Shown piece by piece: positions 1-39,613 of a stretch of 64,000 nucleotides of DNA. The stretch spans positions 1 through 64,000 of the forward strand of contig JAAMPI010000084.1 in NCBI GenBank assembly GCA_013054445.1, written 5' to 3'. The DNA is from Cudoniella acicularis. Lineage: Eukaryota; Ascomycota; Leotiomycetes; Helotiales; Helotiaceae. Made by a program: the position numbers and the translations under genes. The number at the start of each line of letters is the position of its first letter. Within the stretch, counting starts at the first letter, position 1. A model generated the notes under the pieces. The model did not search any database. It was not told where the DNA came from and saw only the letters and a program-made list of their open reading frames with translations.

Positions 1-1130
1 CCCACATTGAAACCACTTCCTACTTTATTTTTCATCACATCCTTGATATCGACTCTGCTCCCAACCTCATCATCCACTCTCCTCACAATCCCAACCTCGA
101 CGCCATTATTCCTCAACATCTCCGCCTCCCCAATCTGACTCTCTGCAGCTCTCACCAAGCTCTCCTCTCTTACCGCCCAATACAGTAGAAATCTCTTGGC
201 TCTTCCCCTCCCCTTCTCAGACAAATACATCTGCAAATAGCCCATGACACTAGGAATCCCAATTCCTCCCGCAATACCAACAATCGTGTCCATATTGTTC
301 AAAAGATTAATTAGTGCAGAACCATATGGACCTCCTACCATGACCGAGATGTGAGCTGATTTTTATAAACTCGTCTCCTGGAAGCAATTCCACAAGCGCG
401 GATGGATGACCTCGAACAAACCATGACTTCCAATTGAGGCTGATAAATCGAAATGGGCATACAATTCTGTCGAACCCCCAAAATGCAAATGCGATATACA
501 GCCAGGTTTCATAGCCGTAAACTTTGTTGAAGCGGTCCATTACATGGTACCACAGGGCAGCGAGAATTGCAATCGAAAACACAATATGTACGAATAAAAA
601 CACCTCGTACATTTTAGCTCGCAGGGGCAGCCATGAGAATAAGGAGACCATTAATGCCAGAGCTCCCACCGCTATCTCGCCATATGACCAGTAGGAATCA
701 TTGTAGTTGACTGTGTGGATGCCTGCAGCTAGAGTGAACATGTTATTTTCAAAGCTATTAGTGCTGCCCATGTATAAAGCGACATGGATTATGCCTTGAA
801 TGGCAGCAACTCTACCGACCCAGCGGTGGGATGTGAGGATATCTGTGCGGTTTGCTCCCGTGATGTAGAGAAGGAGCGTATTCCTTCCGGAAAACATAAT
901 TGCGGGGGCGATATTCGCAAAAGACAGGACGCCGAGACGGTTGGCGATGAAGGAAAATTGCCAGGAATTCGTCGAAGATGCAAAGACCCGATGAGAGCTG
1001 GCTCGAAGATGTATATTTTTAATAATTTCGAAATGGCTCGTGGGAGGGAGAAACCTGGCAAGAAGCTATTGATGGGACGCAAGAGGCCGAAGTAAAAGCA
1101 GACTCCGACGACAGCCAAGATGACGATCAT
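1..1130 (-). pseudogene. Ferric reductase-like (FRE) pseudogene, runs off left edge
   Basis: Reading leftwards from 1130, the translation follows the order of a fungal ferric/cupric reductase: an N-terminal membrane segment (MIVILAVVGVCFYFGLLR), then 'FEPALIGSLHLRR', the heme-binding transmembrane block ('IANRLGVLSFANIAPA', 'LLLYITGANRTDILTSHRW', 'FLFVHIVFSIAILAALWYH'), then the NAD-binding motif 'VGGPYGS' and 'GGIGIPSVMGYL'. Family members reduce Fe(III) at the plasma membrane using FAD and NADPH. Two blocks are missing, each with a frame change. One lies near 985-1000, where a lumenal and transmembrane stretch should be. The other lies near 350-360, where FIKIS is followed almost at once by AHISVMVGGPYG, so the FAD-binding domain is absent. 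I therefore read it as a deletion-damaged pseudogene; very unusual splicing is the alternative. Gene identity is firm, exact limits are not. It sits head to head with a broken esterase only about 40 bp away. Confidence 0.8.
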
Positions 1131-1169
1131 CCTGTATGTTTTGGTTAACTAAAAAAAACCCTCACACTA

Positions 1170-3168
1170 GAATTGTGGTTACAAACCCATACAAAGTATG
1201 AGAAAATTCCTCGCTCACATAGCCTTGAATCGTCCTTCTCGAATCGAAGATGTGCAACATATTACTACGGGCTGACTACCTTACCCACCATCTGTCATAA
1301 TCGAAGATGTCAAAACCCCGCCAGATTACTATCTAGATTCTGCCCACTATATCTCACAATATCTAGGCCCCACGCGGATGAACGAGACTGGCAGGACTTG
1401 GTGGCAGTGGCGAAGACCTAACAGTGTGGTGAGGGCGGAATGGGTTGAAATGAAAGTGGATTATTTGGAGAGGAAATATTCGAATAAGCCGAGCTAAAAG
1501 GTCATGTTCTATAGTAAGTATCTCTTGTGACTTCCCAGACATCAAAAGAACAGAGTATTTTTCGAACCACTTTTCCAAACATCTGACTATCAATTATATA
1601 CCCCTCACCACTTCAGTTCGTTGATAATTCAAATTCTAACCGTAATTGCAGTTCACGGCGGTGCTTATTATCTTGGTGGTATTGGTCACGGTCTTCAGAT
1701 CCAAAGACATGCTCGAAAGTATGTTCTTTCATCAACTGTCATCCTTGAAGTAAATGGCTAAAAAAACAACAGGCTACAAGGGAGAGTCTTCGCTCCTCGA
1801 TATCGTCTAGCTCCAGATTTTCCATTCCCCTGTGCCATACCAGACGTCTTATCCGCATATCTTTACCTCCTCAAACTTCAGTAAGTAGCACCGAGCAAAG
1901 CTACAACACGGAGAAAAGCTCACCTTGTCAACAGAAAACCAGAAACAATCGTCGTTGCAGGCGACTCAGCCGGCGGTGGCCTATGTGTCACACTCCTCCT
2001 TATTCCCTGAGATCTAGGCCTACCTCTTCCCACCGGAGCAAGTTTAATTTTTCCTTGGGTTGATTGGACACATTCCTTCCCAAGTATCACAATTCCAACC
2101 GAGTTCGACTATGTTCCAGCACACGGATTCCATGCTAAGCTTCAATGGCTTGGCCACCGCCGAGTTCAGTTGAAGTGAAGATGCTTGGATGACCTGTACA
2201 CCCAGGAGCCCAACCGGATTTCGAGGTTGAGGTTGATAGTTAGAGAGTACCTCTTACTGAACAGTTTCAGATGTATGCGCAGAACACGCATCTACAGATC
2301 CCGTTAATATCGAGTATCACAGCAGCGTCACTTGGAGGTAAGACGCATCCATCCATTTTCTTGAATTTTCGTACACATTTGTAGGAGTTTCACTAACAAC
2401 ATAACTTATCTAGGCCTATGCCCTTTGCAAGTCATCGTTGGTTGAGGCCAGGTCCTCCGAGACGAGCAAATCTACCTCGAGCACAAAGCAGCACACCCGG
2501 ACCAGTACCCACCATGCGAGGAAATCCTCATGGCCAACGGAAACACCGCCAAAGACGTGATGAAATACCTACCAATAGACGTGCAGCTCCTAGTATTCGA
2601 TAATTGTCCCCACGCAGCACCAACTCTCGGTCACACCCGTGGTGCAAAATATCAATACAGGTCTGTAGCTCAATTTGCAGCTTGGGCGCTTTCAAGGGCA
2701 CAGAAAACAGATATTGATCTTCAAGATAATTCTTCTATGAGATCTGGGAGGACGGGACACTCTGAATCCGTTAGTGACCTCTTCCAACTTCCATTTCCAA
2801 AAAAAAAAAAAAAAAACTAAAACTATATGAGGACGTCTCTTACTTACCAATTTTCCGAACAGCAGAACAACACACTCGACCAAATTGGCAAAGCAGGAGA
2901 TCCAATTCCCTCATTCGTAGACCACATGGTCCGACAGCGCGTAGATCGATACGGAAATCCCTTTCCCCTCGAGCCAGCATCAGAGCTTCGCGCGTGCAAT
3001 GTCCCAATAGAAGAAATAGGTTGGCCTAAAGAAACCGCTTTGAGGGGCTGGTTTGCGTCCCGCCAAAAGCAGAATGCCAAATATGCGTGGCAGAAAGAGA
3101 AAAGTTCGTATTCGAATTCTTGTGCAATAATCACTTCAATTTCTATATATGAGAGAGACTGGAATTAA
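1170..3168 (+). pseudogene. HSL-type alpha/beta-hydrolase (esterase/lipase) pseudogene
   Basis: The reconstructed reading contains the oxyanion-hole motif HGGAYYLGG (about 1654), '[16 protein letters not shown]', the nucleophile motif GDSAGGGL (about 1962-1985), 'LRDEQIYLEHK', 'PHAAPTL' with the catalytic His region, and 'YRSVAQFAAWALSRAQ', followed by the family's C-terminal extension ('DHMVRQRVDRYGN', 'PLEPASEL'). Introns are visible at 1514-1651, 1719-1772, 1881-1934, 2338-2413 and about 2770-2863; the last one carries a run of 17 A. The frame contains stops: TGA after 'QHITTG', TAA after 'NKPS', TGA after 'LLLIP' and TGA in the VGxGQVLRDE motif. Several of these fit C-to-T change of CAA or CGA. 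The family hydrolyses short acyl esters. With at least four stops this copy is not functional as read. The 5' end is unclear; the frame is recognisable from about 1198. Confidence 0.85.
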
Positions 3169-4657
3169 CGGAGGAAACAATAGTATTCATGCAGCGAGCA
3201 CAAGACTGCCAAATTGGCTTCGTGAAATTTCCAGATGGCAAGGTTCCTCCTCCGTGTTCCTAAGCATATTACCCCCTCAGCTCCCCGCAATAACTCCTAA
3301 TAGAAGCACAATCTTCCAATTCTGAAATTCTAAGTCCCCTCACAACCCAGAACAATTATTTAAACAGAGACAAAATAACCCCTCTACCCTAATCCCCGAT
3401 TCATGGCCTGCTTCAGTCTCAAGTCCTTAGCACACTTACTCACTGCACGAAGAAAAAAAGTGGATCTACCCATCCATGCATGCACTCACTACTTGGAAAC
3501 CCACCAACCCACCTTACAGTACTTCCCCCCCCACCCCATCGATCTCCTCCTCACATCCAAAAAAAAAAAAGTGCCAAAAGGTCTACTAACGTCATCCAGC
3601 ATTATCTGATCTCCACCCTTTATATCTATGCATAATCCACATCCATGGTAACCTAGACTCACCGCCTTGCTTTAAAACTGTCAGATGAAGAATGATTTTA
3701 ATGGGTTGGTGTATTGGCGATTTATGAAACGCTCTGTATGATGTCATTGGCTCAAAAAGCAAAAAAGGAAACGTGGGATAGAGCCAGGAATACCAACAAT
3801 ATTGAATAAAAAAATTTCAATGAGGTTGATTGATGAATAGGGAGGGCAACTTCACATCACGTCACGAGTTTAAGAGTGCTCATATCATCAACTCTCTTTT
3901 ATTGTCAATGATTCACCATACCGTAGCTAGGCGTAATTGGCGGGCCATTTCCTGGCACTTCGTCCAAAATCATCAGCAACGTCCGGAAGTTAACGAAGGT
4001 GCCCCCCAAGGAGCATCGCTTCCTCAACTCAACCCGGTGGTTGTCCTCTTGTTCATCGTATGTACGTAACGCTGGGAATCTTTTCCCCCCCTTCCAGACC
4101 GACCCATAGCAGCACAACTTTTTGTCCAAAAAAAGCAATCTCAATCTCAGAGGCTTTCAAAAAGCCTTTATCCCCATTATCCGATCCCGCAAGTAGGCTC
4201 ATAATGAGACCTAAACGTAAAAATGAAGATTAAAACCCAGTCTATGTTGGAAGGAGAAGAGAGGCCCGTCGTGAATAGCCATCACGAAGCTAGGAGAAAG
4301 AACATGCAAGAATCGCGAAAATCGCTCAAATGTACAGCTGAAGTCAAGGCAAAACCCATTTGTTCACCACCGTTCCCACCCGCAAAAATGCTAAAGACCC
4401 AAGGTTCCGGGGCAAGAGGAGTCGTTTCGTATAAACAATGGGTGAGAACCGACAAATTCTTCACCCAATCGGGTCATCCCAAAGTTCGTAAAGGCGGCGC
4501 CAATTTAGGTTATCCATGTACCACACTCAATGAAGAGGTAGGTCAAATGGTTTTCCGACAAATACCACGTAATCGTGATGATTCTTCAAAAGTCGTGTGC
4601 TGGATTCTTAAAATATTGATCTCGATAGTTTCCGAACTACTCAACGAGCAATCATCT
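3169..4657. other. Intergenic, no gene seen
   Basis: There is no coding signal. The stretch holds short poly-A tracts (for example near 3559-3570) and probably the 3' flank of the phosphatase-regulator gene to the right. A 232-codon open frame on the plus strand at 4223-4921 overlaps that gene's last exon antisense and has no recognisable domain. Confidence 0.6.
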
Positions 4658-7081
4658 TCAACCGCGAATAGCTGTTGCTGTATGAGCGTCGTGGAACGGA
4701 AAACCAGAATGTATGTTGTAGGGATACATCGGAGACGTACCCGTAACGAAGCCCGTCATCGGGGCTGGCGAAGCAGAGCGAGAAGCTTGCGAGGTTGGAT
4801 TTTGAGTCCGTGGAGGAGACGGCTTCTTCTCCATCATCAAAGGCGAACTGTCTGCAGTAGACTCGGCGGAACCAAGAACGTAGCCGTCTTCACTACTGCC
4901 GTCATATTGACCGGAGCGTAAGGTTCCATCTTTGAGCTGAGGCGAACTCTTCACGGATCCAAACTAAAGTTAAAATTAGCTCAAGACGGGTTATGGGTAC
5001 GTGCCACCCCAGTGGTGCTCGTTGGTACGTACGAAACAATACTTGTCCAACAACTCGTTGTAGGATTGAGACGCTAGAACCGGCTTCTCAATCCCAGCGG
5101 GTCGAGGGGAATCGGTACCACTGGTAATGGGCGTAGCGACAACAGCGGGTGCTGTTTTGGTGGGCGGTGGAGTTGGCTTGCTCAAAGATTGATTGCTGGT
5201 CATGGTGAGGGGAGAAGAAGTCTCTCCAACATCGGCAATAAATTTCCGGACTGGTTTCTTAGCAGTAGGCTTCATTGTGATACCACTCCTATCACCCAAT
5301 ACACTGTTAGCAGCTTGGATAGCCGCAGACAGAGAGGCTCCAAAATCATATCTGTTACCGAATGCTTGGCCATTTGGATGGGGTGCTCGGCGAGTGAGGT
5401 TGTCTGAGCCAAGATTGACAGCGGACTTGACTCCCTTTAATCTCAACGATGTTCCAGTCTCGCCCAAGTAGTCACTGACAGGTTGCTTATAATTGTCAAA
5501 CTTATACTTGGCATCAAACCCATCAGCAAAATCGTCGAAAGCAACCGGCATGGACTTTGGCCTTTCGGCAGGCGGTGACTTTTTGTTGCTTCGTGGAAGG
5601 GAGTGGGCAGGCCTAGATCCTGCACATTGCATGCCCTTCTTTCCATTTTGTGCCTTGGGCTTTTTCTTAAAGTCGACTTGGAAATTGGTGGAGTTATTGT
5701 TGTCCCAGTACTCTTGACCGTTAACACTATACTTGACGCAAAAGAACATTGTCTTTGCCTCCAGGTTAGCTTGATCAGCTAACTTGATGTTGAAATTGAA
5801 ACGGTCGAAACCATCAGCATTCTTCGGTTGCCGTACGTCATTGTTGAACTCAGCAACCACCTCAGATGTAGTCTTCCAGTAGTCGAGCGTGAATCGTGCC
5901 ACCACGAATTTGTGGAATGCAAGGTTTGCCACAGCGACGCTGCCCACCAGGGTTTTGTTATCGGCAGACAGGAACACTCTCTCGACTCTTATAGGCAGTG
6001 CAAGGCGTTGTGGGGTTTCGGCGGGGAAATTGGACACGATAATTTCCCATTCGAAAGGCGGAGTTCGACCAACAGTTGTATTGTCCTCACCGAATGGAAA
6101 CTCTGTGTCACTCTCGTATGCTTCAACTGGCGATGAACCTGCACTGACTGCCAACGGTCGATCGACTTGTAGAAAGTGTCTCACATGTTCCAGATGGGAG
6201 TCGAAATGGACAGCCTTGGAGAAGGTGGGGGTACCGGGCATACTTGACGGCCGCCGCCGTGCCGATGAAGGTCTCAGTGCTGGCCTCACAAGCTCACCTG
6301 ATTTCTTTCTCAACATGGGCGGTTTGCGTCGTGACCGTTCGGGCTCGTCTCCTTCACTTGATGACTCTTCATCAGATCCGGTTAATGGCGTCTCGGGAGA
6401 GTTGATACTTCGTAGATCGACGAAAACCGACGTGTCCGTGTTTGACCTGTTGTGAGCAATCTTGCGGACCGCTTGTGACGCCGCTTGTTCGACATGTGCT
6501 ACAATCGGTTTGTCGTCGGACTGGGAGGGCATGATTAGAGTCAATACTTGGTTGGCTTTTGAATTTTCTTCTGCCCCTCGGCTCGGCGAGCTTTCACGAC
6601 GTTGCTCTATTATTCTGATGGCCTCCTGAAGTTCCGCCAAGTTTTCCAGATTCCGTCCTCTTGAGGTCTTCGTATCCTCATCATCACTCGAGTTTTGCGC
6701 GGAATCAGGTGGAGAAATAACAGCACCTGGAGGCATTTGCGTCTCGTCGGTCACGGGCGGCGGCGATTGCCTAAGACTGCCGTTAGGAGCTAAGCCGTTC
6801 GTATCATTATTTTCTTTGTCCGCTGTTCCAGGTGGTGTATGTTCGAGGGCGGGCTCAAAGGAGGTTGTCTTGACCGACGTCGACCGTCTATGCCGGGTGA
6901 GATAGGATGTCGAGCGTGGGAGCTCCGGTCGACTCGAGTGATGAGCTTGGTGATGGTGATTTGGTTGGTATGACCCACGCCGACTGAGGTTTGGAGAATG
7001 AGGAGCGGAAGAGGCTGGAGATCGTTGGGAGGGGGGAGTGTAAGGCATCCGTACGGTCGGTGCCCTGATCTGATGTATCAA
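4658..7081 (-). CDS. Protein phosphatase 1 regulatory subunit, glycogen-targeting (CBM21)
   Basis: This gene would target protein phosphatase 1 to glycogen, as yeast Gac1/Pig1 do, so that glycogen synthase is dephosphorylated and activated. It has two exons, 7081-5033 and 4963-4658, joined over a 69-nt intron (donor GTACGT, acceptor TTTAG). The junction restores 'LLDKYCFFGSVKSSPQLKDG', giving 784 residues. Residues 1-285 are low-complexity and rich in Ser, Pro and Arg. An RVxF-type PP1-docking motif, KAVHF, lies at about 289-293 in the context TPTFSKAVHFDSHLEHVR. The CBM21 domain spans about 345-472 (WEIIVSNFP, VERVFLSADNKTLVGSVAV, VKYSVNGQEYWDNNNSTNF). The rest is a disordered tail ending in ATAIRG. 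The start is the first Met of an uninterrupted frame. A very long gene-free upstream region may hold its promoter and leader. Family assignment is secure; which yeast paralogue it matches is not. Confidence 0.93.
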
Positions 7082-7822
7082 AAGATTTGGGTGCGGTGAA
7101 TTTTGACGAGGGGATTATTGAGGAGCAGTCTAGCTCTCGCTCAACATGAAAGCTCTGGTCTCCAGCAGAACCCTAAGTATCAATGCACTAGGTGTCTGGG
7201 GCAGCGGGTTAGCCGGAGTCCGTGAATGGTGAAAAGAGAGGAGTCGAGGCTCTTTAGGTGTTAAAGAAGGAGACAAATCGAAGGCTACATTGAAGCCCGT
7301 TATTCATTTGAACTTACGAGACGTGTAGGAAAATGTATGCGGGAGCGGGAGGGCACGGGTCAAGACTTTCGAGCACGGCGTATTCCAGCTATCGTGCTTG
7401 GGTCTTCCACGGCAAGAGCGAGGGGCGACAAAGAGCCTTTCGGGGTGGAATGTTCTCCAGAAGACGGCTTGTGCGAGGTCAAGAGGGAGGCGACGAAGGT
7501 GCCAGGACAAAGTCAATCGCGACTTCTCTACCTGTTCCTTCTCGACGGGTGTGCAGGGTGGATTGGGTAAGGCGGGTTAGGCTCTACTTGACGCTGGTGC
7601 GGTCGAGGAGCAGCAAGGCCGGCCTTTTATGGAATGACGTCTTGCGGATTATGCGAGCAGCAGAAGGCAAATCCTATGCAGTCCGTAAAAAAGAAGAATT
7701 GAATCTCTCACGACAATGTGAATCCAAGGCTGGCGGTGGCCTAGATGTGTGGAGGATAGAGAGAGGAATTAGGGATTATTAGAGGAGGGTTGCAACTAGG
7801 TGTAGGTAAGTAGCAGACGGGC

Positions 7823-7848
7823 GCTGGTGCTGGTGCTGGTGCTGGTGC
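7823..7848. repeat. Hexanucleotide tandem repeat (GCTGGT)n
   Basis: About four and a half units of GCTGGT in a row lie upstream of the phosphatase-regulator gene. This is a simple microsatellite with no known role. Confidence 0.8.
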
Positions 7849-8202
7849 CAGGAGGCAGACCGGGATGGGATTAGATGCTGGGCAGGCCAAGATTGTTGGA
7901 TTGGCTTGATGGGCGTAGTGCCGTTTGAAGTGCGGGTGGATGTGTGAATGGTGCATGCAACTGGATGGGTGGTGGAGCGGCGGTGGTACGAGTTTACCGC
8001 CACCAAAAAGATGACCGTCAAAGAACCTGCGAGGGGCGACAAGCTCTCCCTCGTCCAACCGTCCAACGCGTTTGCCAAACGCAGTGGGGCGCTTTGCCTG
8101 GTCTGGGCTTGCTGGGGGGGGCCGGGGCTGCCTGCTGGTACATGTGGTTGAACGACACCAGCCGCTAAGATTCTGGAGATGGTGAAGATGAGGGGTACTA
8201 GG

Positions 8203-8226
8203 CCTCACCTCACCTCACCTCACCTC
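8203..8226. repeat. Pentanucleotide tandem repeat (CCTCA)n
   Basis: Nearly five perfect CCTCA units in the gene-poor interval. Confidence 0.85.
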
Positions 8227-11200
8227 TTTTCACGTAACTGCTTGCGAGATTCATATACAGACTTGCGAGGACATGGTCCATTGAGTTGTCTTGTCTGATC
8301 AAATTCCAGAGGCATGGCCTGTTCTGTACATGTTCATGTCATGTACATATAGTATTGTGTATAGTATAGCATGGTACAGTACAGAGGCCCGTTCTGATTT
8401 GGCAATTGTCAAGTAGTAGGTAGCAGCTTCTCCTCGCAGCCAGTTTCGCTTTGTCCAGCCGAATTTCTTGGTGGGCAGTGGCTGCGATTGCCCAAACTCG
8501 AAATGGGCAGAAAAAAAACTTGGTGGAATTGGCGTCGACCGGGGTAGGGACGCCAAGCGCGCCACATTGGCCTTCGCTCTCAACCCCTGTCCTTGCCCCT
8601 CCCCATTCCCATGTTCGCATGCGACCGGGGTCTGGCCGCATTCGCCATGGATCAGTCGGCATCGATATGGAGCCTGCCAAAGCTGCAGACCGCGTCGCAA
8701 CTCGTCAATCGCAAAACGGCAACGCGGTCACCACCCTCATCAACGCAACTCACTGGCCGGTAGTAGCAGCAATGATGGGAATTGGAGCAGCTTCTAAGAG
8801 CAGGAGATGTATTCCTGTGGCCTCAATCGACTGTAGCTCTCTGGAGAGGACGGTTATACTCGTAGAGTCGCTGCAATCACCGCAAGCGCGTGCTGCACAC
8901 TGCAGAGGGCCTCATTATTTTGCAATTTACGGTGCATCTCGAGAAATGACAGGTATCGCGTCGCTGTAACACCGAATCGACGCAGCCCAGATCGTGTCAC
9001 CCACGTATCTCTTGCTACGGAGGCTTTTGTACCATGTATCTCTTGTCCTTCTAGAAACTCTCCGGGATGTCAAAGATGGAATACGGGGTACAGACAGTAG
9101 TCGTCCTCAAAGCTACACGGCCAGACAACTAGAGTACAATATACATCTACAGCACAGTGCCTATGCATCGGCCACCATGAGTGGATGTTTACTTGTGTAG
9201 AAACTTTACACCCGGGCGCGGTTGAGGCCGATCAGTCAGTTGTTGGGGAACTGCAAGTGCGAACATATCATATACACCGTAAGATGAGTACAGTACAGTA
9301 CATACATTCAGCACGGTACTCCGAACATCGGATAAGGATTAAATTTATTCTCATCTACTCCCTCCTCATGGAATGTGTTCTCTATTACAAACCAGCGATT
9401 GATAAGGCAATGGCAGGCGGCAATGGCAGGCTACGACCCCTCTCCTAGTGATCACTGATTGTGGTACTACACCGGCGACAGCGACGGATAAGGTGGAATT
9501 TTAATAACCGCAATGCGCTGGTATCCCACTGACTTTCGGGTCGTTTAGTGAGGCTTCGGCATCATCGGAATGCGCCATGGTTTAACGACAAATCACATCT
9601 GAAATTTCCACCTAGGCGGCCACTGTTTCGATTGGAGGGGTTCAGCCACGAAAAGGTGGCATGTTCGACACAAAAGACTGTTGTGGTTGCAGGAAGGCGT
9701 AGCCTGGTGTAACCCTCTAACGACAAAGACGTTAATCTCTCCTTATGAAAATGCGACTCTTTTCTTCCGACAGCATCCAGCATTCTGGAAGCAGCATATC
9801 TGATACCAATAAGACGCGCGCGGCACCCTCCACTAATACTGTACAGTATAGTAGATTGACACTTCCCGCTCTCAGCCTGTTCGCTGGGATGCAGTATGCA
9901 CTCTTTACATGAGAGGTTGACCTCTAGCTACTGTCGCCCTCAACGCCTCCCCCTCAGCCAACGGTGAAGGTGCGAGAAAACCGGATCTCGGTTGCTCTGC
10001 TGCAGGTCGGGCACAGGCATTAATATTGAGGGCAACTCTCCTCCCAGTCATGTTTGAGAGATTGCTGTGTCACATCAAAGGTGGGAAGGCTATCGCGGGA
10101 GAGCGAAAGACACAATGGTTTATCTTGATAAGCGGCTATGATGGCAGAATTGGCCTGGTACAGATAGTACAGATACCGATGCTATACAGACGTCGACCTC
10201 CCATCCTGTTGCTCCTGCGCGGATATGTGAATATACCGCAAATCAGTTCAGCTGATGCGCTTCTTATTACGACTCCGTCGTCATCGTCACTGAACCCCAC
10301 TCTGTAGATATTCCGAGTCTTCGGATTATTCTGTCTCATGAGCCTCCGCAGCATGGAACACCTCTCCACCGAATGGTGGCAGGGGCCAGGTCCGTGGGTT
10401 CCGCCAGCGCGGCCAAAGGGCCAAGGGGTAAGAGGTGGGCAGAGTGGACACAGTCAGCCGGCTCCACATAAAAACATCGTGAAGTTGGGACATCAGACCA
10501 TGATCACGATCAGAAAGCGACTTTTGCCATCAGCCACTTTATGTGATCGACGATGTACCTGATCCACCGGGGCGGAAGCTCCCACCTCGACCGCGAATTC
10601 TCACGATCCGCTGACTTGGAATATATCTCCGGAGGCATCTCTCACCCCAATCCAAGACTGAAATTCAGCCTCATCGTCCTTGCGATCTATAACTTGTTTT
10701 GTGTTGCGCTGACCAAAAAAAGAATCTTGCGATGACTTCATCGTGCCTTCGCATGTTTTCCCAATTTCCTCTACCAAGGGAGCTCGCGCACGACTTGCTG
10801 CACGGTCATGATGCTGCCTCGTGCTCGTGATTGATGCGTGGGCACTGGGCGAGCTTTGCACCGCAGGCTCGCAGCATAGACGGCCAATGGAAAACCGTTG
10901 CATTCTCCCTCCTTCACTCATTCTTAGCGGCAGGAAGCTTTTGAAACGGAAATCACTGGAAATAAGCCGTCCCGAGCTTGCAAGTTGCTTCCCGTCTGAG
11001 GGAATCAAAGTTCAGCTGCCAGCTTCCAAGGTCGGAGATTCTCAGACGCCCAAGAAGGGATATCTCCTCGGAGCACGAGGTCTAGCTGCTTGCGCTCACA
11101 ATTATTAGGTGAAAAGTCAAACAGCTGCGGCAATCACGACCAGCTTCACAGGTGCTTCTGGAAGCTCGAGATGGCGGTGAGGACAAGTAGACGCAGCACC

Positions 11201-28090: not shown

Positions 28091-29170
28091 TCAAACCTCC
28101 TTGGCCTCCTTGGCTTTGGACGACTCTTCCTCTTTTTCTTTCCGTGCCTTCTCTTCCTCCTCTTTTTCTTTTTGTGCCTTCTCCTCTTCCTCCTTCTCCT
28201 TCTTTTCCTTCTCCTTGATCTTCTCCGTCCGCATAGTCTTCACCCACTCGGCGGCATTTTTAACGGCTGCTTCTGGAGCTCTCTTATACTTCAAACAATA
28301 CCCCTGAATCTCCGCAGGAGAAAATGTCATGGTGGGAATAATTTGCGCGAATTCCTCTGCCAATCCCTTGACCTTTTCTTCCTCCCTTCTCTTCTTTTCT
28401 TGAAACTCCAATTCTCGTTTCCGCTCTTCTTCCTCTCTTTGCTTCTCATCCAATTTCTCTTTCTCGGTAGTGGCGGGTTTTGGGGCACGGATGCTGAGCT
28501 TGGAGGATCGGGGAATGTCGCCTTCAAGAGTCGCAAAGATAGCGCGGAAGATGGTAGAGAGCATTTCTGTGCTTGCCAAGTCGAATTTCACCATCATGTC
28601 CACGCGGCCTGGACGGATGAGCGCCTCATCTAGCTTCTCGATGTGGTTTGTCGTCATGATGAGGACCCTTCCTTCTTGACTTGCAACTCCATCCAGAATG
28701 TTGAGTAGAGCAGAAAGCGAGATTTTTCCACCACGAGCTTTCGGCTTGGCGAGGGATTTAATGGGCGTTGAGGCTGCCATGGTGGTTACCAGTGGTTTCG
28801 AATCAGAGTCCTTTTCGTCACGAGTGTGGGTTAGACCTGCTGTATCAATGTCTTCGAGAAGGACGACGCATTGCTTAGGAAGTTCGGAGAAGAGTGTGCC
28901 GAGGTTTTCCTCATCCATTGATGGAGAGTTTAGACTGATGATGTAAATCTTGAGCTTGAAGTAGCCGGCAATAGCAAAACTATTGTCTTCCTAGCTAAGA
29001 TTTTGATGAAATAGAATCAAAGGCTCTACATATTTCCGATTCAAGTATTTGATATAGTGACTAGTCATATAACCACGGACTTCGCTATTTTGCTCCATAT
29101 CGGCTAACAAAATACTGACCATATTCCTCACCTGACTGTAATTCACATCCACACACTTAGCTCGCTGAGA
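28091..29170 (-). pseudogene. BCS1-like AAA ATPase pseudogene with eroded Walker A
   Basis: The open part (28918-28091, 275 codons) carries the second half of a BCS1-family AAA module: Walker B 'CVVLLEDIDTAGL', 'GKISLSALLNILDGVASQEG', sensor 1 'LIMTTNHIEKLDEALIRPGR' with the arginine finger, then an insertion rich in Glu and Lys, a C-terminal lid ('IQGYCLKYKRAPEAAV') and a long charged tail of KEKEEEE repeats. Upstream, the frame still reads 'NSFAIAGYFKLKIYIISLNS', typical of the family. But the Walker A loop expected just before it is reduced to 'LFHQNLS*ED', with a TAG stop and no GxxGxGK. Further upstream only weak traces remain. BCS1 proteins act in the mitochondrial inner membrane on complex III; the fungal relatives are diverse. 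ATP binding is impossible as read, and the untouched 3' half suggests recent loss. Confidence 0.75.
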
Positions 29171-29217
29171 TTCGAAAAGTACTTTTGGGATTGCATGGCT
29201 ATCAAAGTAACTACTAT

Positions 29218-32200
29218 CTAAAGTCTCGCACGATTCTCGGCGGCCCTTAATTGGAGTTCCAAAGGCATAGCCCTTGATTCCATCATTTTTACTACATCTC
29301 TAGGAAATGCAGTGTACTTGATATGAATGCCTTTTCCAAAATGCACTTCTGACTTCCCTTGCATGCGGTTGTATAACAGATGGAGCGCAAGTTGGAGGCA
29401 GTCCTCTTGCTCCAGGTCTTCCAACCTCCATGTAACATAAGGATCAAGCTGAAGCAAGGCAGCCCGTTCCCGAGTCTCGTCGTCTGGCTGCTCTTCAGAA
29501 AGAAAATCATTCAATCTGTAGAGCTTTCGGAGATGCTTCTCATCTTTCTTTTCCCGCGTTAGCTCTCGTGCAGCTTCCAGACTCGTGTCTACGAGGAAGT
29601 CTTCCTCATCATCCCCATCCTCAGATGAGGCGAGAAACTCTTCTTCTGAAGCTGCATCAGGTATAAGATCATAGTCTGAATCCATATGATCACCCTCATC
29701 GACGTATTCATCGTCCTCGTCGTCTTCCTCGTCCGGACCACTGCTATCGTCATCATCCTCCCCCCTTGACACGCTCTCCTCAAAAGTACTTTTGTCATTG
29801 GGCAGTGTAGCCATTCGACATTTTTGGCAATGAAGGGGCACTTGTACCTCGTCTAAAGCGATCCCAAGACATTTTGCGTGACCGAGCGTACAACAAGAGC
29901 TGCACGTAACTGTGTCGTTCTCGTCGGAAATGGAGCGATAGCAAACCTCACAGAAGCTCTCTTGCTGGGTAGCTTCTTTATGGCGCCTTTCGCGCTCTTC
30001 GGGTTGAAGCAACGCGCCTGTTTTACCGTCATAATCCAAAAGCGAAAATCGCTCGACAGTTTTCCGCGTTCGTTTACTCCCTTGCGTACTTGATTCTGCA
30101 TTTGTGACATCCAGCTGCCGAGTTTCTTTGGAGGCCTGTTTCTTCAACTGGTCCTCTCTCCGTTGTCTCTTCATTTCCTCCATGCGGACAGCGATAGCAA
30201 CATCCCGAGTGTTTTGCTTCTCTTGAATTTCTTTGAGCATCTCTTGACCGTCTTGACTTTCATGACATGCATTCACCCGTGGTTGAAACTCATTTAAAAG
30301 GCGTATAAGCAAATTTCGTATAGCTGGGTCCTGCGAGTTGGCAGCGAGCATTACCGTTGCTTTACCCGTTTGCCTTGAACTTCTAAATTGATCATGGCTG
30401 TTGGGGGTGCTCTTCTTAATGGCGATGCCTGGGAATTCGGAAGTGACCTAGAGCGGGATGTCAGTAGCCAGGTCTAAAAAGTACTTTTGGAGCAGAGTAT
30501 TAGTGATGGGGTTCTCTTACGCGGTTGATTCGACCCCCAGCTTGTGCCTCCTGAGGGTAGGAGCGGAAATCCGCCCCGAACACAATCACATTGCAAGATA
30601 TATGCATGTTAAAGCCTATTGCGCCAACGTCCTGTAGCAAAATCAACACCTTCAAACTGCTTTCGGGGTCGTTGAATAAGTCAACCAGCTCGGATCTCGC
30701 ATTGTTAGATAGTCCTGAATGCATGGTGCGCGCATCCACAAGGCCGGCCCGCAAAGTTTTTTCAACATAGTAAGCATTGGCCGGGACAGTGTCGGCATAT
30801 ATAAGTTTTTGGTGATGCTTGTAGAATGGCTTGTTCAAGGGGTCCAGGACATGGTACGTCAGTAGTACCTGGAATAGCAGTCTGAGGGTTGGTGAGCCCT
30901 TGGTCAGGAATCTCACGAGATCTGCAGCAGTTTGCGACCGTGGTTCGCCTTCTCCTCTAGTGAGATCTTGGATAAAATCAGCTTCCTGGTTTTCCGACCT
31001 CCATTTGTCCAGCGTGGCGACGTGGGTATTGCCTTCCACACTCTGCATGACTAAATTCAGCCTTGCTAATATGGTTGAGCAATTAAGCATGGCCAACTTT
31101 CGGAGGGCTGCCCCACCGCAAACGGAAGCCCTTGCCGACATTGCCATCGGTCTCCCGATTTTTTCGGTCCTAGTTTGCTTTTGGAATTCCTGCACATACT
31201 CGCTATGACGCGTTAGTATGGTACTACAAGGCCTGTGGCTGAAAAGTACTTTTCAGAAGGAGCTAGAACAGGGTGCATGAACTTACTTTGCATACTGGCG
31301 ATGAAAATACTGATACTCAGGTTCCTCAGCGGGTAGTCTCTTCACGATAGCGGTCTTGGTGGTCATCTTCCTAAACAGAGGGCGCAGCGAGACTGGGTCG
31401 CCAATCTCCATCGGCAGTACCGAAGACGTAGATCGCTGGATTAGCACGAGATCTAGGATCGGTCTGAACTTTTTGGCGACTTGAATATGAACTTCACTAG
31501 AAGCGGCAGCCTGACGTAAGTGTCTTGGATCTAGAAGCGCAAGGCGTCGGGTATCACAGGCGGGGAGGTTCGACAATTCTGTGATAAGGTCTAATTCCTT
31601 TTGGTAAATGTCGGCGAACCACTCTGAGATAGAGGGATCTAACTTCACGCGGACTTGCAGCTCAGTCTCGATCATGGGCCATAACAGAAGCAAGAGTGCG
31701 ATGAGGTCCTGCCGAGGTGTTAGTCAAGAGATTCTTGTAAGTGAGAGGGTGCGATGAGAGGAGGGTAAAGAGGGCGTCGCCAAAAGTACTTTTGGATAGA
31801 TAGAAAAAACCATGATGACCTACCTTGATCGTGTTATGCATGGGCGTTGCCGTTAGCAAAACTATCTTCCGAAAGGCCTGGTTGTGCAAGACCGCCCATA
31901 GCCCCGTGGTAGTGTTCTTGACTTTTTGACATTCATCCCCGGCGAGCAAAGAGTAAGTCCCAGTATGTTGGGTGACCCAGTAATGCTTTTTCCGAGGTTT
32001 TCGCTTCCATACCGGAGCGCCTTTGTCGTTAAACCGAGGGGGTTTGAACGGTACCCCAGGGATGACTTTAGTCTTTCTACGAGCAGTTCGATTCTTGTGC
32101 GTCTCATATGAGGTTAATATAAGCACATTCGCTGCTCTCGGATCTTTCTGGTCGAAGATGAAGCGTAAGTTTGCCGGCAACGTGTCAATATGAGGGTATT

Positions 32201-35176
32201 GGCTCATCGCCGAGTAGGAAAGGGAGGACGTTTGCATCATATCCTTGTATTCGTGTTCTTCGTAGGACATGACTACACGAAAACCGGGCCAATGCAAGCG
32301 GAGCTCGCAAAGCCATTGATTTACGAGCGAGGGTGGGACTACTAACAGTATGGGGCGAAATATGCGTTCCTTGCCTGTGGGGTCCATCGAGTCGTCGAGT
32401 ACGACATGAATGAGTGCAACCATTAGAGCTTGTTTGGTCTTTCCAAGGCCGACCTCGTCAGCTAAGATAGCCCCATGGATCAGTAAGTGCTCGAGTTTGC
32501 CTGCTGCTAAATGCACCTTTTTCGCACATGGGAGGTGTGCTGAATTTGTAGCAGCGAGTAAGCGTTCAGCGTCGATCTTCCCGTAGAGTTTGAGGAGTAT
32601 GCCGACAATCCCAGTTATTTGGTAATTGAAAAAAGAACAGCCGGTTCGGTCTTTAAAGAGGCGGGACTGATATCGACCATTAGATAACTGCTCGCAGTCG
32701 AGCAGTTGTAAACAAACATCTAACTCTGGTCCAGCACGCGAGTTAAGGCCGGAGAACGCGGAGCGCATAGTATAGTAATCGTCCTCGCGCAGAGAAGAGG
32801 CCTGCTTAAGTAGTCAGAACCGAAAAGTACTTTCGGAAGGGGACGGGGAAGAGCTACTGACCTCTGATTCTTCAGTGAGGGGTACGTCGATAGTGACGCC
32901 TTCCTGGGCGATAGCAAGTTGCGTGCCTAATTCTTCGCCCGTCTGAATGGCACTTCGCTCCGCCGATGTCAGTTTCAAATCTCGGGCGACCTTGTCTACC
33001 TTCAGAATAGCGGTCTTGGCGTTTTGGGACAATTCCATGAATAGCTTTTTCTGCCATTGACGCCGTGTTTCCGGCTCGGTCACATCCATCCCATCATAGT
33101 ATTGGAGGAAAGCGATTTTGTTGGAACCGAAACGCTTCATCGGGTCTGGGGGGGCGCCAATGCCATTTATACCACCTCCTTGGGAAAATATAATGTCTAG
33201 GTAAGACCGGCCGATGGACGAGACCTCGTTGGTGGGGGGCTGAGCACCATCTTTAGAGCCGGATGTCCCGTCAAATGCAGCGGCAACGATGGAAGCAACT
33301 CCCGCTTCATTGACCCTGACATCGCCAGAGGAGGTGTCGAACAGGCCAGCAATTTCTGGAGGCGGCTCGAAACTCTCGAAAATGTTAGAACTTGGGTCGT
33401 CTAGAGCCTCAAAGGTGACATGTAGACCGAAATCCTTATTCGACGGGGACTCAAAAGTACTTTTCGAGGCGGGCCACGGCGCACGAAACACGTCCTGGGT
33501 CTCTTTTACTCCATCTTCCGAGATGAAGGTGAGTTCGAGAGATCGAATGTCCATCTTTATCTCGTGGCAATTGTACTGCCGGCGGATGGCATCTCGAAAA
33601 GCCTCAATGCTGGAAAATAATCGGGGGTCTGCTAGAAGCCTTTGCTTCCGCGTAGGCTGGGGGATGTTTGCTTCCTTGGCCGCAACTAATGCATCTTCAA
33701 GATCCTCGATCCCGTCAAATCTGATAGCCTCCCAGATGATTGTAATATCAAGGGGCTCGAGTTGATCGGCAGCTTGAACGTTAACGCTCTTTTGTATAAG
33801 GGTTGCTATGTTAGCTGGGGGTGCTTCGGGGGGTCTGAGCCATTGCGGCACATGGGATATGTCAATTACGCAACGCTGGAGCATTGCCTCAGATGAGAAC
33901 TTCTGCTCCCACTGGGTGTTGTTGAAACAGTACCTCACGTACCTGAGCAAATTCCATAGACGGTTGAAGACCTCAAGCCGGGTCTCCTGCTCATAAGGCC
34001 CCGTGATTGGGGGAGAGAAGGAAAGTACTTTTCCGTCCGCATGGGAGTCTTCATAGCCGATGCTCGGTATCTCTCGACCCATGAATCGGTGGGCGAAGGC
34101 TGCTGCATAGATATCTTGCTGCTGACGGTTAAAGTCGCTCGAATTTTCTGTTAAGCTTTCCACTTCCGATTTCATGGTGCTCAGGAGACAAGCAAGATGG
34201 CGGCTTTTGATTTCTGTCGAGGGGGAGGGTCCTAATGGCCAATTTATATCTGGATTTACACCTGTGAAGAGAGCTTCGTTGTCATCGAGGAATCTCAGGG
34301 CAGTCTTCTTGTTCATGTTGGCTCCGAAAACATCGAAGCGGATGGATGCTTTCAAAACTGGCCAAGACATAGCCAACGCTCGCAGTTGAGTGACATCGTT
34401 GAAGCCCATATATGATCCGAGCTTTTGCTCGTTGTTGGGGATGTCGATGAAGGGAACTCCTTTCTTGATGTTTCCGGGGCTCTCGACTAATTTGGGTTGC
34501 GATGGACGTCTTCGAGAGACCGAAGCGCCCTTCTTCACCTATGAAATTGTCAGTGAATGGGGGAAAGTACTTTTGAGATCCGGATGATCAAGCGTACCTT
34601 TTTTGGCTTGTCCTTAGATGGAGTCTCATCTTGGCCCTCTTCATCGGATTGCTCCCGCTGCTTGCCCTTGCCCTGTACGCAGATGAATTAATAGAAAGTT
34701 CTTCCATGAATGAATTGATTGCGCCTTACCTTGTCTACCTTCTTAGCTGGCGAGTCATCGTCACCCTCAAACATAGCACTATCACCAAGAGGCTGGGAGT
34801 TCTTCTGACGTTTCGGTGCGGGTCGTCGCTAGGCTCCGTCGATGCTGGTTTGCTGGGGGTTGGAGCAGGTTTGGTCTTCTTTGAGGAAGCTTTCATCGGG
34901 AAATCTTGGGCGGCAGTCTTGTTGGTCGCAGCTTTGCCCGCTGGCATGGTTGGTCTAGCTCCCGAAGGTCCACTCATGGCTTGGTCCTACGGCACGCCGA
35001 TAAGTCAACTTTGGCGATAATATCGAAAAGTACTTTTGGATACGCACTAGCTCAGCTTTGTTGGAATTCCGCAAAGGTCGTCTAGGTGCTGTAGGCGGCT
35101 CAGCCTCTTTCTTACCATTCCCTCCACCTTCTGGGGCTGGCTGGGACACTGGCTGGGACACCGGCTTGGGCGGCAT
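29218..35176 (-). CDS. Very large SNF2-family helicase with Cys-rich finger; one frameshift
   Basis: I read eight exons: 35176-35048, 34986-34730, 34672-34598, 34538-32862, 32801-31824, 31708-31287, 31202-30521 and 30447-29218, about 1,816 residues. The N-terminus is basic and disordered. The SNF2 motor has motif I 'ADEVGLGKTKQA' (about 828), a DECQ box in place of DEGH (about 1002), motif III TATPMHN (about 1030) and a helicase C lobe ending 'QAGGRINR' (about 1402). A Cys-rich finger (CEVC..CSSC..CQKC, about 1570) and a long acidic stretch follow. Splices agree in phase except exon 2, whose 257 nt leave the frame one base short between 'STEPSDD' and 'PKRQKNSQPLGD'. That is a 1-nt loss or a sequence error. 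It lies downstream of, and on the same strand as, a DUF3435 recombinase. Six of its seven introns carry the AAAAGTACTTTT palindrome. Family members remodel chromatin or translocate on DNA; the role here is unknown. Confidence 0.85.
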
Positions 35177-36154
35177 GTTGTCGCTGTATGGAAGAGTCAA
35201 CAGACAGATGGGGGGGATAAGGATGGGAATAGTTACCTGGAAACAAGAACTCGCGAGCTTGCTTGCTTGTGAAAGAGATGGAGTTCTGGTTCTTGTGAGA
35301 ATCCAAGATATTTGTGTCGTAAATAAAGATAGTGTCGTGGTGTCAAAGTTGAGGTTCAAGTGTCGATATTGACCACAACCTCTTCACCTTTGGGAATATG
35401 GCGTAGAAGACGCGCACGGTTTGTGGTATATGCTTGCAAATATCCCCGCCGATTCACTGCGCGAAGGCAGTCGTTAGATTGATTGGTAACTGCAAAGGAC
35501 GTGGTGGTGGCGAGGCAAAGTTGATGTTGTTGTTGTGGTGTTAGTGGAGGAGGAGGAGGAGGAGAAGGAGGAGGCTCCAAAGACGTCACTAGGCCTCGAT
35601 AACAAAAACCTACCGAAGACAGATCACCTCTTCTCAAATCCCATAGCCATTTCGAAAGGAAATTTATAGCTTGTTTACATGTAGGGAATGAATCACTTGG
35701 TGCAGGTGAAGCTATGCTCGTGAACGGTCTTAGGTACTTTTCGGTCTTATTATTATAGCTATATGTGTGATGGATGGATCGAGCCAGCCCGGTTGAGAAG
35801 GCTTCTCTATGTCCGTGATGACGATGGAAGCAACAACGTGATGAATGAAGGGGATGCATGAAAGGCCCGAATAAACGAGATCTCTCCCAAAAGTACTTCT
35901 CAGTTATCTTATAGGGCTAGCCATAAAAGCCCCGCAGCTCGCTGCGATAAGAGTGAGGGTCCCACTTGTTGGTATGGTACTAGCTTTTATGGTTGTTCCA
36001 CTAGCCAGCAACGGCAAAGCTGTAAATCATCTTGGATTTAAAGCTATCTGTTAACTATAAGCCCTGCTAGCACAATAGAATCTACTGAGAAGCTATCTTC
36101 CACATGGTATATTTCATGTCACCCTCTCCTGTAAGCAAATCCTTCATACACATC
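35177..36154. other. Intergenic region between DUF3435 and SNF2 genes
   Basis: It should contain the SNF2 promoter and the 3' end of the recombinase gene. It holds palindrome copy 35889-35900, a weaker copy at 35733 and an imperfect inverted repeat at 35915-36006. A 167-codon frame at 35356-35859 (minus) has low complexity (Pro and Gln runs) and no domain, so I do not call it a gene. Confidence 0.55.
35915..36006. repeat. Imperfect inverted repeat (GGCTAGCCATAAAAGC arms)
   Basis: The left arm GGCTAGCCATAAAAGC (35915-35930) pairs with GCTTTTATGG (35983-35992) plus CTAGCC (36001-36006), with 8 extra bases inside the right arm. The loop is GC-rich (GCCCCGCAGCTCGCTGCG). It may be the footprint of a small element or a strong hairpin between the two genes. 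Confidence 0.6.
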
Positions 36155-39100
36155 TTACTTCCTAGCTTTCTTCAACAGCCTCTCCTCTTCCACCCCTCCT
36201 TGAACATTTGCAGGTCTCTCGGAAAGTACTTTCAAGTTCTTGCGCGCTTCTGATCGTGATACCTCAACCCTCCCTATGCCATGAACAGTGCGCAAATGAT
36301 TTTCCAATTCGGCAGGCGTCATCTCGCCTTGATAAGAGCAGGTCTTTGGAAAGCAAGGGCAAGGAAGAATTGAACCGGAATCGACGCCATCGAAATGCGC
36401 AGCTATGTGCTTTTGGTAGTCTCCACGAGAGAGGAGGTTCATTGTCTTTGAAATTCTCTCAACAGGCGAAAGGTTCTCGTCATGAAGACAGAACGGGCAG
36501 AAAGAGGGGATCGTTCGACGCCCATTGTCAAACTGGCCGGTATATCCGTATTCCATAACCAAACTCCATACCTCGTCCCAGTGCATCTCGAAATGCTCGT
36601 CGTGGGCGGTGCCAAATTGGACCCACCCCAGGAAGTGCTCACATATACCGCACCATAGTACTGGTTCAATAGCGCGTGGACTAAGTCGATGCTCTTCATA
36701 CAAATGGCTAAGATAGCTCTGTTTCGACATAAAGACCGACGTTGTTGACAAAAGTACTTTTGGAACTTTCCCAGCATCGGAAGGCGTAGAAGTCAGAACA
36801 GCACAGCCCTTATAGTAGCAATGCCACTCTCCATGAGGAATGTTTCCGACCTCGTGATGTCGTTTGTGGGCCTGTAATGTATGCTCCCAGACATGGTTAA
36901 TCTGCTGCCGGCGAGTCTTGAATTTGTTGTACTGACAAAGCTTTGGATTCTTCCTCTTCGTCGGTCCTTGAGAGTAATAAGTACAAGGCACGTCGAGAGG
37001 GAGGAGGTGCTTCTCGAATGCCTCGTTCGCGGCGTGCCGAAGAACGGTGGCATGAGCGCTATGAGCAGTTTCAGGGGCATGCCAGTCCAGTGAGAGATCA
37101 ACACCAGAAAAGCGACAGATAGACGTTCCAAGCACAGGCTCTTCCCCCGGAATGTACTTCCCACTCCTATGAGTGGCAGAGAAGACCTCAACCATAATGT
37201 CGGAAAGAGCTGCATCTGTGAGACCACCCGAGCTCATTGCCTCTCGAACTCGAGCGATAGTCATATTCTTTGGTCGTGCACTTCCATCATTGATTTTGTG
37301 AAGCCGAATCATGTCGGATCCTTCGGCAAGCTGAAGGGGTAAGCCAGCAGAATGGTTGGTGGGCATCGGCATGACATCGTCCATCACCATCAGGCTTGAA
37401 TTGGGCCCGCCGATTTCGACGTCGCTGACCGTCGGCTCCTCGGCGACAATAGTCTGGTAATCAGCTAACTCTTGTGCCGCCGATTCCTCTTCCTGCTCTA
37501 AATGCAGCAACCAGTCACGACTATCTTCGGTAGTAGGGTCGTCGACCTGTACAAGATCCGGCCAAGAATGGTGATCGATCATCATCATCGGCGTGGAAGG
37601 AGTGGGGACTGGAGGGCGACCGGGATCTGTGAAGAGCTTGCGATACTCTTCTCCATAGATGCGTCTCAAAAGTACTCTTCGACGGTTCTTGAGGCGCGCA
37701 GTTGCGGCGATTAGGTCTCTGACACGTTGATCACTAGAACGAACTGCCGCAGCAATAGATCCGTACAGCTCCGAGAGACTTGTACGCATCTGCGAGGTCT
37801 CGAGACTATATTGTATGACTTCGGTATCTTGTTCTATCGTCTGCCAGCCTTCTGGGCTTATGGTCTCAGGAAGATGCTGAATCCTATTAAGCGAAAGACC
37901 AACCATTTCAGCGTTGTTCACAGCGCGTACGTCACGGAAAAGCTCCTGGACGTGAACCATTGAGATCGCGGAGTGATAGTTGCTATAAATCTCCGAATTT
38001 GTCTTGTGACCCATCAAAAACCTTCGATCCTCCGCAGATGCTCTCAGGTAGAGCATGTTTGCATAGCCTCTCCGGAGCGTGTAAGGGACGGCATTGTGCT
38101 CAAACCCTAAAAGTCGACCTAAGCCTACTAAGCTTTCCCCAAGTTTTCCACTGCGAAGTGGTCGTCCGCGTGCGGACGGAAAACGGGGACTTCGATAAAG
38201 TCATCTGATTGCCGAATCTCCCGAGTATGGGGTCCTAGATTTGAGCCGTCCAGTTAGCAAATCGGAGGCGCCAATTCTGACCTGATTTGATTTGAAGCTC
38301 ACCCGGATCGATAGCGAGAATGCTCGACCAAGAAACCCCAGGACCGAACACGCCATCGACAAGAGCCAGCGTCGCAAGCAGACGTAAAGAGTCCTGCATA
38401 GCCATATTTACTGGAAGGAGACGAAGGGTGACCGTCTTCTGCAGGTCTTTCCTTCGCTGACCTTTCTGATACTTGATATCGATGTTGGCGGCGATGACGC
38501 GGTCCCCATCATCCACGTTAACAACGTAGAAGTGGCAATGGTTCCAACAAAGGCAATGATTTTCCTGCTCTGAAATCATCGGACCGCCCCAAGCAAGGTC
38601 CGAACCACGGCCACAAACATCCACGAAAAGATTCATATACAAAGCCATGTTAAGCACCACTCTGATGCTCTTGACACTGAGGCTATATGCGTCGGAGAAG
38701 GCCGCGTCGACCAAGAGATCAAGATCATTACTCGTGGCTACGTGTTTCGGCCGTACCTTGTTCGAGAGTTCACCGTCGTGTCCAAGAACCCCGATATAAA
38801 CAAAGACCTGTTTCCTTTCCTCCGGTTCGAGTTGTTTCTTCCCGGTACAGCGGTAAGCAGCAGAGATCGTATTGGAGATGTAACCTTGTACCGTCTTTAC
38901 CGTGATCCTGTCGTCAAGCATTCCACTCGAAGTTCGAGCCAAGTAAAGCGTGAAGAGCTTGATGATTTCGAGGGAGAAGAGTTGAGCTCCGAGGGAAAAG
39001 TACTTTTGAGGATCGGTTACCTTGACTTGATTTCGAGAGAGTATCGTTAGTCCTGATGGCAATAGAGAAGATGGTGAAGCTTACTTCGAGGATCTTTAGG

Positions 39101-39322
39101 ACCTATGATCTCGAGGAACTCGCGGAATCGTTTTACCGCAATGTGAATTAGGTTCTCGTACCCCCAGGAGATGGGTGGAGCAATCCATTTGTTAAGGTCC
39201 GTGTCTTTGATAGACGTTCCATCTGTACGCTGTTCATCTTCTGCTAGCTTCAATAGACGAGATTGGCGCTTTCTCTCCTTGACACTCTGAGTTCTCTGAG
39301 TTCTCTGAGTCTTGGAAGGCAT
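36155..39322 (-). CDS. DUF3435 tyrosine recombinase-like protein with C-terminal zinc fingers
   Basis: Exons 39322-39085, 39025-38303 and 38234-36155 give about 1,013 residues. The core looks like the fungal DUF3435 tyrosine-recombinase fold, the family that includes Starship captains and Crypton-like enzymes. 'DVCGRGSDLAWGGP' carries the first Arg (about 220), 'VPYTLRRGYAN' the second Arg region (about 373), 'RRFLMGH' follows, and 'SEIYSNYH' holds the candidate Tyr (about 399). The C-terminal half has several Cys/His clusters ('WCGICEHFLGWVQFGTAHDE', 'SFCPFCLHDE', 'LPCPCFPKTC..H') that look like C2H2-type fingers. The frame breaks once near 38137-38143, between 'FAVENLG' and 'ESLVGLGRLLGF'. 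A 1-nt loss in the GGGG run explains it; a 50-nt GT-AG intron nearby would also restore the frame. Family members cut and rejoin DNA. Whether this one is active is unknown. Confidence 0.8.
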
Positions 39323-39365
39323 CGTATGGCATCTTCCCCTCCTTGATGCGAGAGGGGGAGGGAGG

Positions 39366-39367
<2 letters not shown>

Positions 39368-39409
<42 letters not shown>

Positions 39410-39419
39410 TGTGTGTGTT
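39368..39419. repeat. (GA)n-(GT)n compound microsatellite
   Basis: About twenty GA units are followed by about six GT units, 45 bp upstream of the DUF3435 start codon, in its promoter or leader. Confidence 0.9.
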
Positions 39420-39613
39420 GAAGTAAGTGCAGAAGGTGTCTATAGGGAGCTCGGGCCTCCCTCACTGGAAGACTCCTGCCCGTTGTTTTCGCTTTGGAGT
39501 ACTGGTCGGACTCTTTCTCTAGCGTGAACCTTGCCTCTTTGGATTGTGCGCTTTAGTTTTTCCTCCTCCGCCTGAGCTACTTCATCACTCATATATTTAT
39601 AGACTACCTCTGT

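Follow-up and report, generated by a model that had tools for sequence, protein, structure and literature searches.

A 12-bp palindrome repeated along a DUF3435–SNF2 gene unit and in a recombinase-like gene family of Cudoniella acicularis

Why does one short palindrome recur along the whole length of a two-gene unit, in exons and introns alike? The question is raised by a 64,000-nt stretch of the genome of the fungus Cudoniella acicularis (assembly GCA_013054445.1, contig JAAMPI010000084.1, positions 1–64,000; the window), in which a DUF3435 tyrosine-recombinase gene stands beside an SNF2-type gene (together, the unit). The original prediction, made from the letters alone, held that 15 palindromes lie between 29175 and 39007 and are confined to these two genes. 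We found that the 12-bp site AAAAGTACTTTT forms an evenly spaced array that is specific to the unit within the window, and that it clusters elsewhere in the genome in one family of recombinase-like genes. Judged by its symmetry and distribution, the site is probably a landing place through which some protein recognises such elements.

The palindrome array of the unit

AAAAGTACTTTT has perfect dyad symmetry over its 12 bp. It occurs exactly nine times in the window, always within 29175–39007, against a mean of 0.01 in 100 shuffles. When up to two mismatches were allowed, the window gave 20 matches, and the 15 of them that lie in the unit between 29175 and 39007 reproduce the predicted palindromes; the remaining five, each with two mismatches, are scattered and at chance level (window mean 4.9). 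The 8-mer core AAGTACTT was found 14 times in the unit and never in the rest of the window, and every one of the 13 window copies of the 10-mer AAAGTACTTT is inside the unit. The limits of the array also agreed with the prediction: site 1 starts 31 bp beyond the stop codon of the SNF2 gene (29218–29220; about 30 bp had been claimed), and the last (38996) is in exon 2 of the DUF3435 gene, i.e. in coding sequence after the first intron, the 3′ end of which is uncertain. The two genes and the 15 sites, the latter listed without strand, are as follows.

29218..35176, minus strand: SNF2-type gene, start uncertain, seven introns
36155..39322, minus strand: DUF3435 tyrosine-recombinase gene, start uncertain
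29175..29186: site 1, AAAAGTACTTTT, 31 bp beyond the SNF2 stop
29782..29793: site 2, exact, last SNF2 exon, frame KSTF
30477..30488: site 3, exact, SNF2 intron 30448–30520
31242..31253: site 4, exact, SNF2 intron 31203–31286
31782..31793: site 5, exact, SNF2 intron 31709–31823
32823..32834: site 6, AAAAGTACTTTC, SNF2 intron 32802–32861
33453..33464: site 7, exact, SNF2 exon, frame KSTF
34021..34032: site 8, GAAAGTACTTTT, SNF2 exon, frame KVLS
34563..34574: site 9, GAAAGTACTTTT, SNF2 intron 34539–34597
35026..35037: site 10, exact, SNF2 intron 34987–35047 (delimited by eye from GT..AG; no homologue seen at that place)
35889..35900: site 11, AAAAGTACTTCT, spacer between the SNF2 and DUF3435 genes
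36222..36233: site 12, GAAAGTACTTTC, DUF3435 exon, frame KVLS
36750..36761: site 13, exact, DUF3435 exon, frame KVLL
37668..37679: site 14, AAAAGTACTCTT, DUF3435 exon, frame RVLL
38996..39007: site 15, exact, DUF3435 exon, frame KYF

A site is present in six of the seven SNF2 introns that can be delimited, and introns, which make up 8.5% of this gene, hold six of its nine sites (P = 2.6e-5); this result is taken from the SNF2 gene only, intron D1 being implausibly short. The exonic sites encode KSTF, K/RVL or KYF, i.e. all three frames, while one site falls between the two genes and another just beyond the SNF2 stop. With sites in introns, in the spacer, in the 3′ flank and in every coding frame, a constraint on DNA rather than on RNA or protein fits best. 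The spacing averages 702 bp with a coefficient of variation of 0.37, and random placement that kept both end sites where they are gave equal evenness in six of 100,000 trials.

Across 30 sites from five loci AGTACT is invariant (its central GTAC was the selection rule), and 20 of the 22 changes at the outer positions, three per half-site, are A-to-G. This comparison used hand-set limits for four contigs and left out four near-sites of the recombinase-like family in which the central GTAC is missing. Sequences flanking the sites are unrelated, save for a weak C/G directly beside them, and therefore the sites are not pieces of a longer repeat.

The SNF2 gene encodes SNF2-related and Helicase_C domains, a PHD-like finger below the cut-off and an N-terminal region with a weak PB1-like match; its N-terminal exon matches the genome at no other place. 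The DUF3435 gene scores 50 bits against a Pfam cut-off of 25.8 (PF11917), and its protein carries, by our own reading, C2H2-like motifs at the C-terminus, with the best Pfam C2H2 matches below cut-off. A CT/GA simple repeat lies at about 39365–39425, just upstream of the DUF3435 start. The neighbouring genes in the window include BCS1-like AAA, Brix and DEAD-box genes.

Further clusters in the assembly and a second palindrome

In the 53.2-Mb assembly, exact AAAAGTACTTTT occurs 22 times (8 in the reversed control), nine times in the unit and 13 times on 13 other contigs, and RAAAGTACTTTY occurs 46 times compared with 23 in the reversed control. The palindrome is therefore not common genome-wide, as the original prediction had anticipated; nor is the 10-mer AAAGTACTTT enriched overall (112 vs 120 in the control). 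Taking all 46 RAAAGTACTTTY places and defining a cluster as two or more within 3 kb, we obtained four clusters: the unit (13 sites) and three genes of one recombinase-like zinc-finger family, on contigs C1226 (4), C887 (2) and C1090 (2). The other 25 sites are single and close to the control of 23, one of them (C1782:63348) lying at a fourth member of the same family together with two looser sites. The claimed restriction to the unit thus stands for the rest of the window and falls for the genome. A tie to DUF3435–SNF2 pairs only is likewise unsupported: one cluster is a pair of this kind, and the three others lie in recombinase-like genes, with no SNF2 homologue seen in the 8.5–18 kb covered at each.

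We tabulated 24 loci in stretches of 2.6 to 18 kb, C1663 being two gene copies counted as one locus. The core AAGTACTT is present at least three times in five of them (the unit, 14; C1226, 4; C1090, 4; C887, 3; C1782, 3), once in three (C1144, C785 and C1019) and not at all in 16, including the family members C1577, C1663, C1688 and C254.

The cluster genes outside the unit may tentatively be regarded as tyrosine recombinases with zinc fingers, an identity supported indirectly by several features of their sequences. H-x-x-R, G-H and Y motifs are found in an alignment of four members (C887, C1577, C1782 and C1226; the H is absent in C1226), C1090 standing outside this alignment. Matches to DUF3435 below the cut-off of 25.8 bits were obtained for C887 (profile 29–80, 13 bits) and C1782 (profile 101–206, 14.8 bits), collinear and in the correct order along the gene. 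The C-termini are zinc-finger-like, with C2H2 matches below cut-off.

A second palindrome occurs in this family. In a dyad scan without a preset sequence, AATCG-N7-CGATT ranked top in both C1577 and C1090, and the full 17-bp palindrome is approximately AATCGRCANTGYCGATT. When as many as three mismatches are allowed, it is present in six of eight recombinase-like family loci and in one of 15 other DUF3435 loci, and is absent from the unit and from the whole window. With at most one mismatch there are 10 copies genome-wide (3 in the control), seven of them in the family, including all three perfect ones; the looser AATCGN7CGATT is little enriched (72 vs 56). The consensus was drawn from the same loci where it was counted, so these counts are partly independent only, and the independent part of the evidence is the ranking in C1577 and C1090. 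Four loci (C887, C1226, C1090 and C1782) carry both palindromes. The presence of the 17-mer in this family suggests the same principle as the 12-mer.

Apparent conservation of the site in homologues

Orthologous DUF3435–SNF2 pairs without the palindrome had been named as a refutation of the original prediction. Homologous SNF2 genes appear to keep it, judged from peptides in predicted proteins that run past splice junctions. Two sets of SNF2 exon homologues were used, one of six proteins (36–42% identity) and one of 10 clear relatives (40–57%), the other 44 of 54 in the second search being weak general helicase matches. Peptides spelling AAAGTACTTT occur seven times in 17 apparent intron read-through tails (404 residues in 15 of the 16 homologues, fragment P0005 left out), against an expectation of 0.2 under the larger of two background rates (P = 2.5e-9), the tail starts having been set by eye and the pattern written after the tails were seen. 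None of 20,000 residue shuffles reached seven. Four near-forms were excluded from the count (EVLF in P0003, ESTS and RSTF in P0034, ASTF in P0040), and the tails without a palindrome-coded sign include those of P0039 and P0002 and four of fewer than 10 residues. For site 5 the palindrome-coded peptide is in the tails of P0035, P0037 and P0038, with near forms in P0034 and P0040 and none in P0039; for site 6 it is in the tails of P0001, P0004 and P0006 and in a 5′ read-in of P0037, with near forms in P0003 and P0034 and none in P0002. These peptides support, indirectly, conservation of the site.

Exonic sites are kept unevenly. KSTF at 33453 is exact in three of six SNF2 homologues and differs by one residue in the other three; the KVLS residues at 34021 are not conserved in homologues. 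For the DUF3435 gene 27 homologues were compared: seven have KVLL at 36750, four have RVLL at 37668 and two have KVLS at 36222, and KYF at 38996 is present in one (P0030) of the four covering that position. The pattern is that expected of sites that turn over, some positions apparently being old.

Within the C. acicularis genome, a decayed DUF3435 paralogue (3748–5604 in C1144:1–8500) shows an excess of G-to-A and C-to-T differences. Its site at C1144:5525, another of the 25 single RAAAGTACTTTY sites, is a DNA-level match to site 36222, while site 36750 is lost and sites 37668 and 38996 were not found; the following 2.9 kb gave no SNF2 match. TAG and TAA stops are seen in many DUF3435 or recombinase-like copies (contigs C1626, C785, C503, C940, C1462 and C1663), and such stops in repeated copies are the expected outcome of repeat-induced point mutation. 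Another motif, TAGTACTA, which has the AGTACT core in common with the 12-mer, is repeated past the DUF3435 match in C1626 (about 3400–3590 of the stretch 1–9900) and C785 (near the end of the stretch taken); the C1626 copies are short tandem units about 0.8–0.9 kb past the match.

Proposed marking of the element and alternative explanations

The reading that we favour, at a probability of about 0.42, is that the 12-mer is a dimer-binding site that marks the whole element as self, for chromatin or excision control. We consider the sites to be putative dimer-binding sites of these elements because of their symmetry, unchanged core, A-to-G outer changes, even spacing and restriction to the unit and one family. 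Selection on DNA would keep the site at roughly every 700 bp along the unit and again inside recombinase-like genes elsewhere. The reader would most likely be an element-encoded protein, its zinc-finger or recombinase-core part landing across the whole element, which would thereby be labelled as self. In the SNF2-carrying unit the motor could act on the marked DNA, keeping it accessible for expression or excision, and the SNF2 protein might polymerise via its PB1-like region. What has been shown is the array itself, with its specificity, its spacing and its clustering in the unit and one gene family; the binding, the identity of the binding protein and its purpose we infer. An element-encoded reader is the most economical choice because a host regulon is not visible; a host protein could also be the reader, since the families that carry the same site are hard to join. 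The initial view of a symmetric site, probably read by a protein and tied to a recombinase unit resembling a selfish element, is supported. Its role may be any of those first suggested, namely spreading, silencing, copy-number control or self-recognition.

A fuller form of this proposal, which we hold to be doubtful, is an address code. Fungal tyrosine-recombinase elements would carry palindromes, dispersed through exons and introns and common to recombinase families, with which a dimeric reader tags the element as a whole. Where an SNF2 gene is present, as in the unit, a remodeller that polymerises through PB1 would treat the tagged stretch as one chromatin domain, and the 12-mer and 17-mer would be different addresses, with some elements carrying both.

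Several observations weigh against marking. The DUF3435 reading frame of the unit is interrupted near 38.1–38.2 kb, between two conserved stretches, and the PB1-like match of the SNF2 protein is within the range that unrelated models give. Searching 8.5–18 kb around each of the C887, C1226 and C1090 clusters gave no SNF2 homologue. The recombinase-like cluster genes were absent from the list of the genome-wide DUF3435 family search, and their family gave nothing above cut-off in a Pfam scan and no matches in NCBIfam or among solved structures. Profile comparisons of this family with that of the unit's protein were poor; in one the R region was collinear, with an E of 0.0054 but a probability of 6.7%. 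C1577 and C1663 are without the 12-mer array and C254 and C1688 without both palindromes; the absence of the 12-mer from all four means that the array is not clade-wide. Finally, conservation of the site was read at the peptide level only.

We rank marking first, transposition sites second, autoregulation third and a host factor fourth. As cis-sites for transposition, the dispersed palindromes would be bound by the recombinase or a helper that folds the element into an excision complex, which we think unlikely. Its precedent is TNPA of the CACTA element Spm/En, an element protein that reads repeats and serves both transposition and suppression; the motif repeated in En-1 is 12 bp long (PMC2613891). 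Both systems have a short motif in many copies within a single element (15 sites over 9.8 kb here), and the restriction of clusters to the unit and recombinase-like genes agrees with such a role. However, the Spm/En repeats are subterminal, whereas the sites described here are palindromic, common to gene families and spread evenly through the exons and introns of both genes of the 9.8-kb unit, not massed at its ends, in an element whose ends are undelimited. The single-copy SNF2 N-terminal exon also argues against transposition.

Slightly less likely still is autoregulation, in which the recombinase or zinc-finger proteins would bind their own and related genes and repress transcription. The C2H2-like motifs that we read in the proteins (best Pfam matches below cut-off) and one site upstream of the C1226 gene are in agreement. 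Promoter control does not require even spacing, however, and the sites run along gene bodies as far as the 3′ end, none being upstream of the DUF3435 gene. We regard it as improbable that a host transcription or silencing protein reads the sites. One trans-acting reader would be expected to leave a site common to poorly joined gene families, as observed, but outside the clusters the site is near control level, so a host regulon is not visible, and an element would be expected to shed sites that merely attract silencing, whereas these appear to be retained.

A mutational or copying origin, with functionless short palindromes that arrived by insertion or were multiplied by gene conversion, is very improbable, even though many sites are concentrated in few loci and the genome has degraded copies among its DUF3435 loci. 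At 33453, 36222, 36750 and 37668, gaps restricted to the site are seen in none of the homologues (longer gaps in P0020, P0026 and P0033 touch or overlap a site, and 29782 and 38996 were outside the comparison), the flanks are unrelated, and both the even spacing and the tail peptides at two intron positions argue against copying. Chance would account for the single sites elsewhere, 25 against 23 in the control, and is refuted for the array by nine exact sites where 0.01 were expected.

Among known systems, the unit resembles the Starship captains (DUF3435, PF11917) in that its DUF3435 gene is above the Pfam cut-off, and differs in its adjacent SNF2 gene and palindrome array. Solo DUF3435 genes are said to be commoner than captains within elements (PMC12134995). 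The same source describes Cryptons as tyrosine-recombinase elements first found in fungi, with recombinases very distantly related to those of captains; the recombinase-like genes described here resemble them in that no SNF2 partner was found near them. We found no description of a DUF3435–SNF2–palindrome arrangement in literature on DUF3435, Starships, Cryptons, recombinase-associated palindromes, captain motifs and subterminal repeats (including passages of PMC10799480 and PMC5374152), a coverage that most subscription papers fall outside.

The palindrome search led to genes absent from the list of the DUF3435 model, and the palindrome may therefore serve as a signature for recombinase elements too diverged for family models. 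A DNA site that is apparently kept over deep divergence and is common to gene families also offers a direct handle, with one oligonucleotide and few candidate proteins. It bears on self-recognition by DUF3435 recombinases and on the means by which such elements evade or exploit chromatin silencing.

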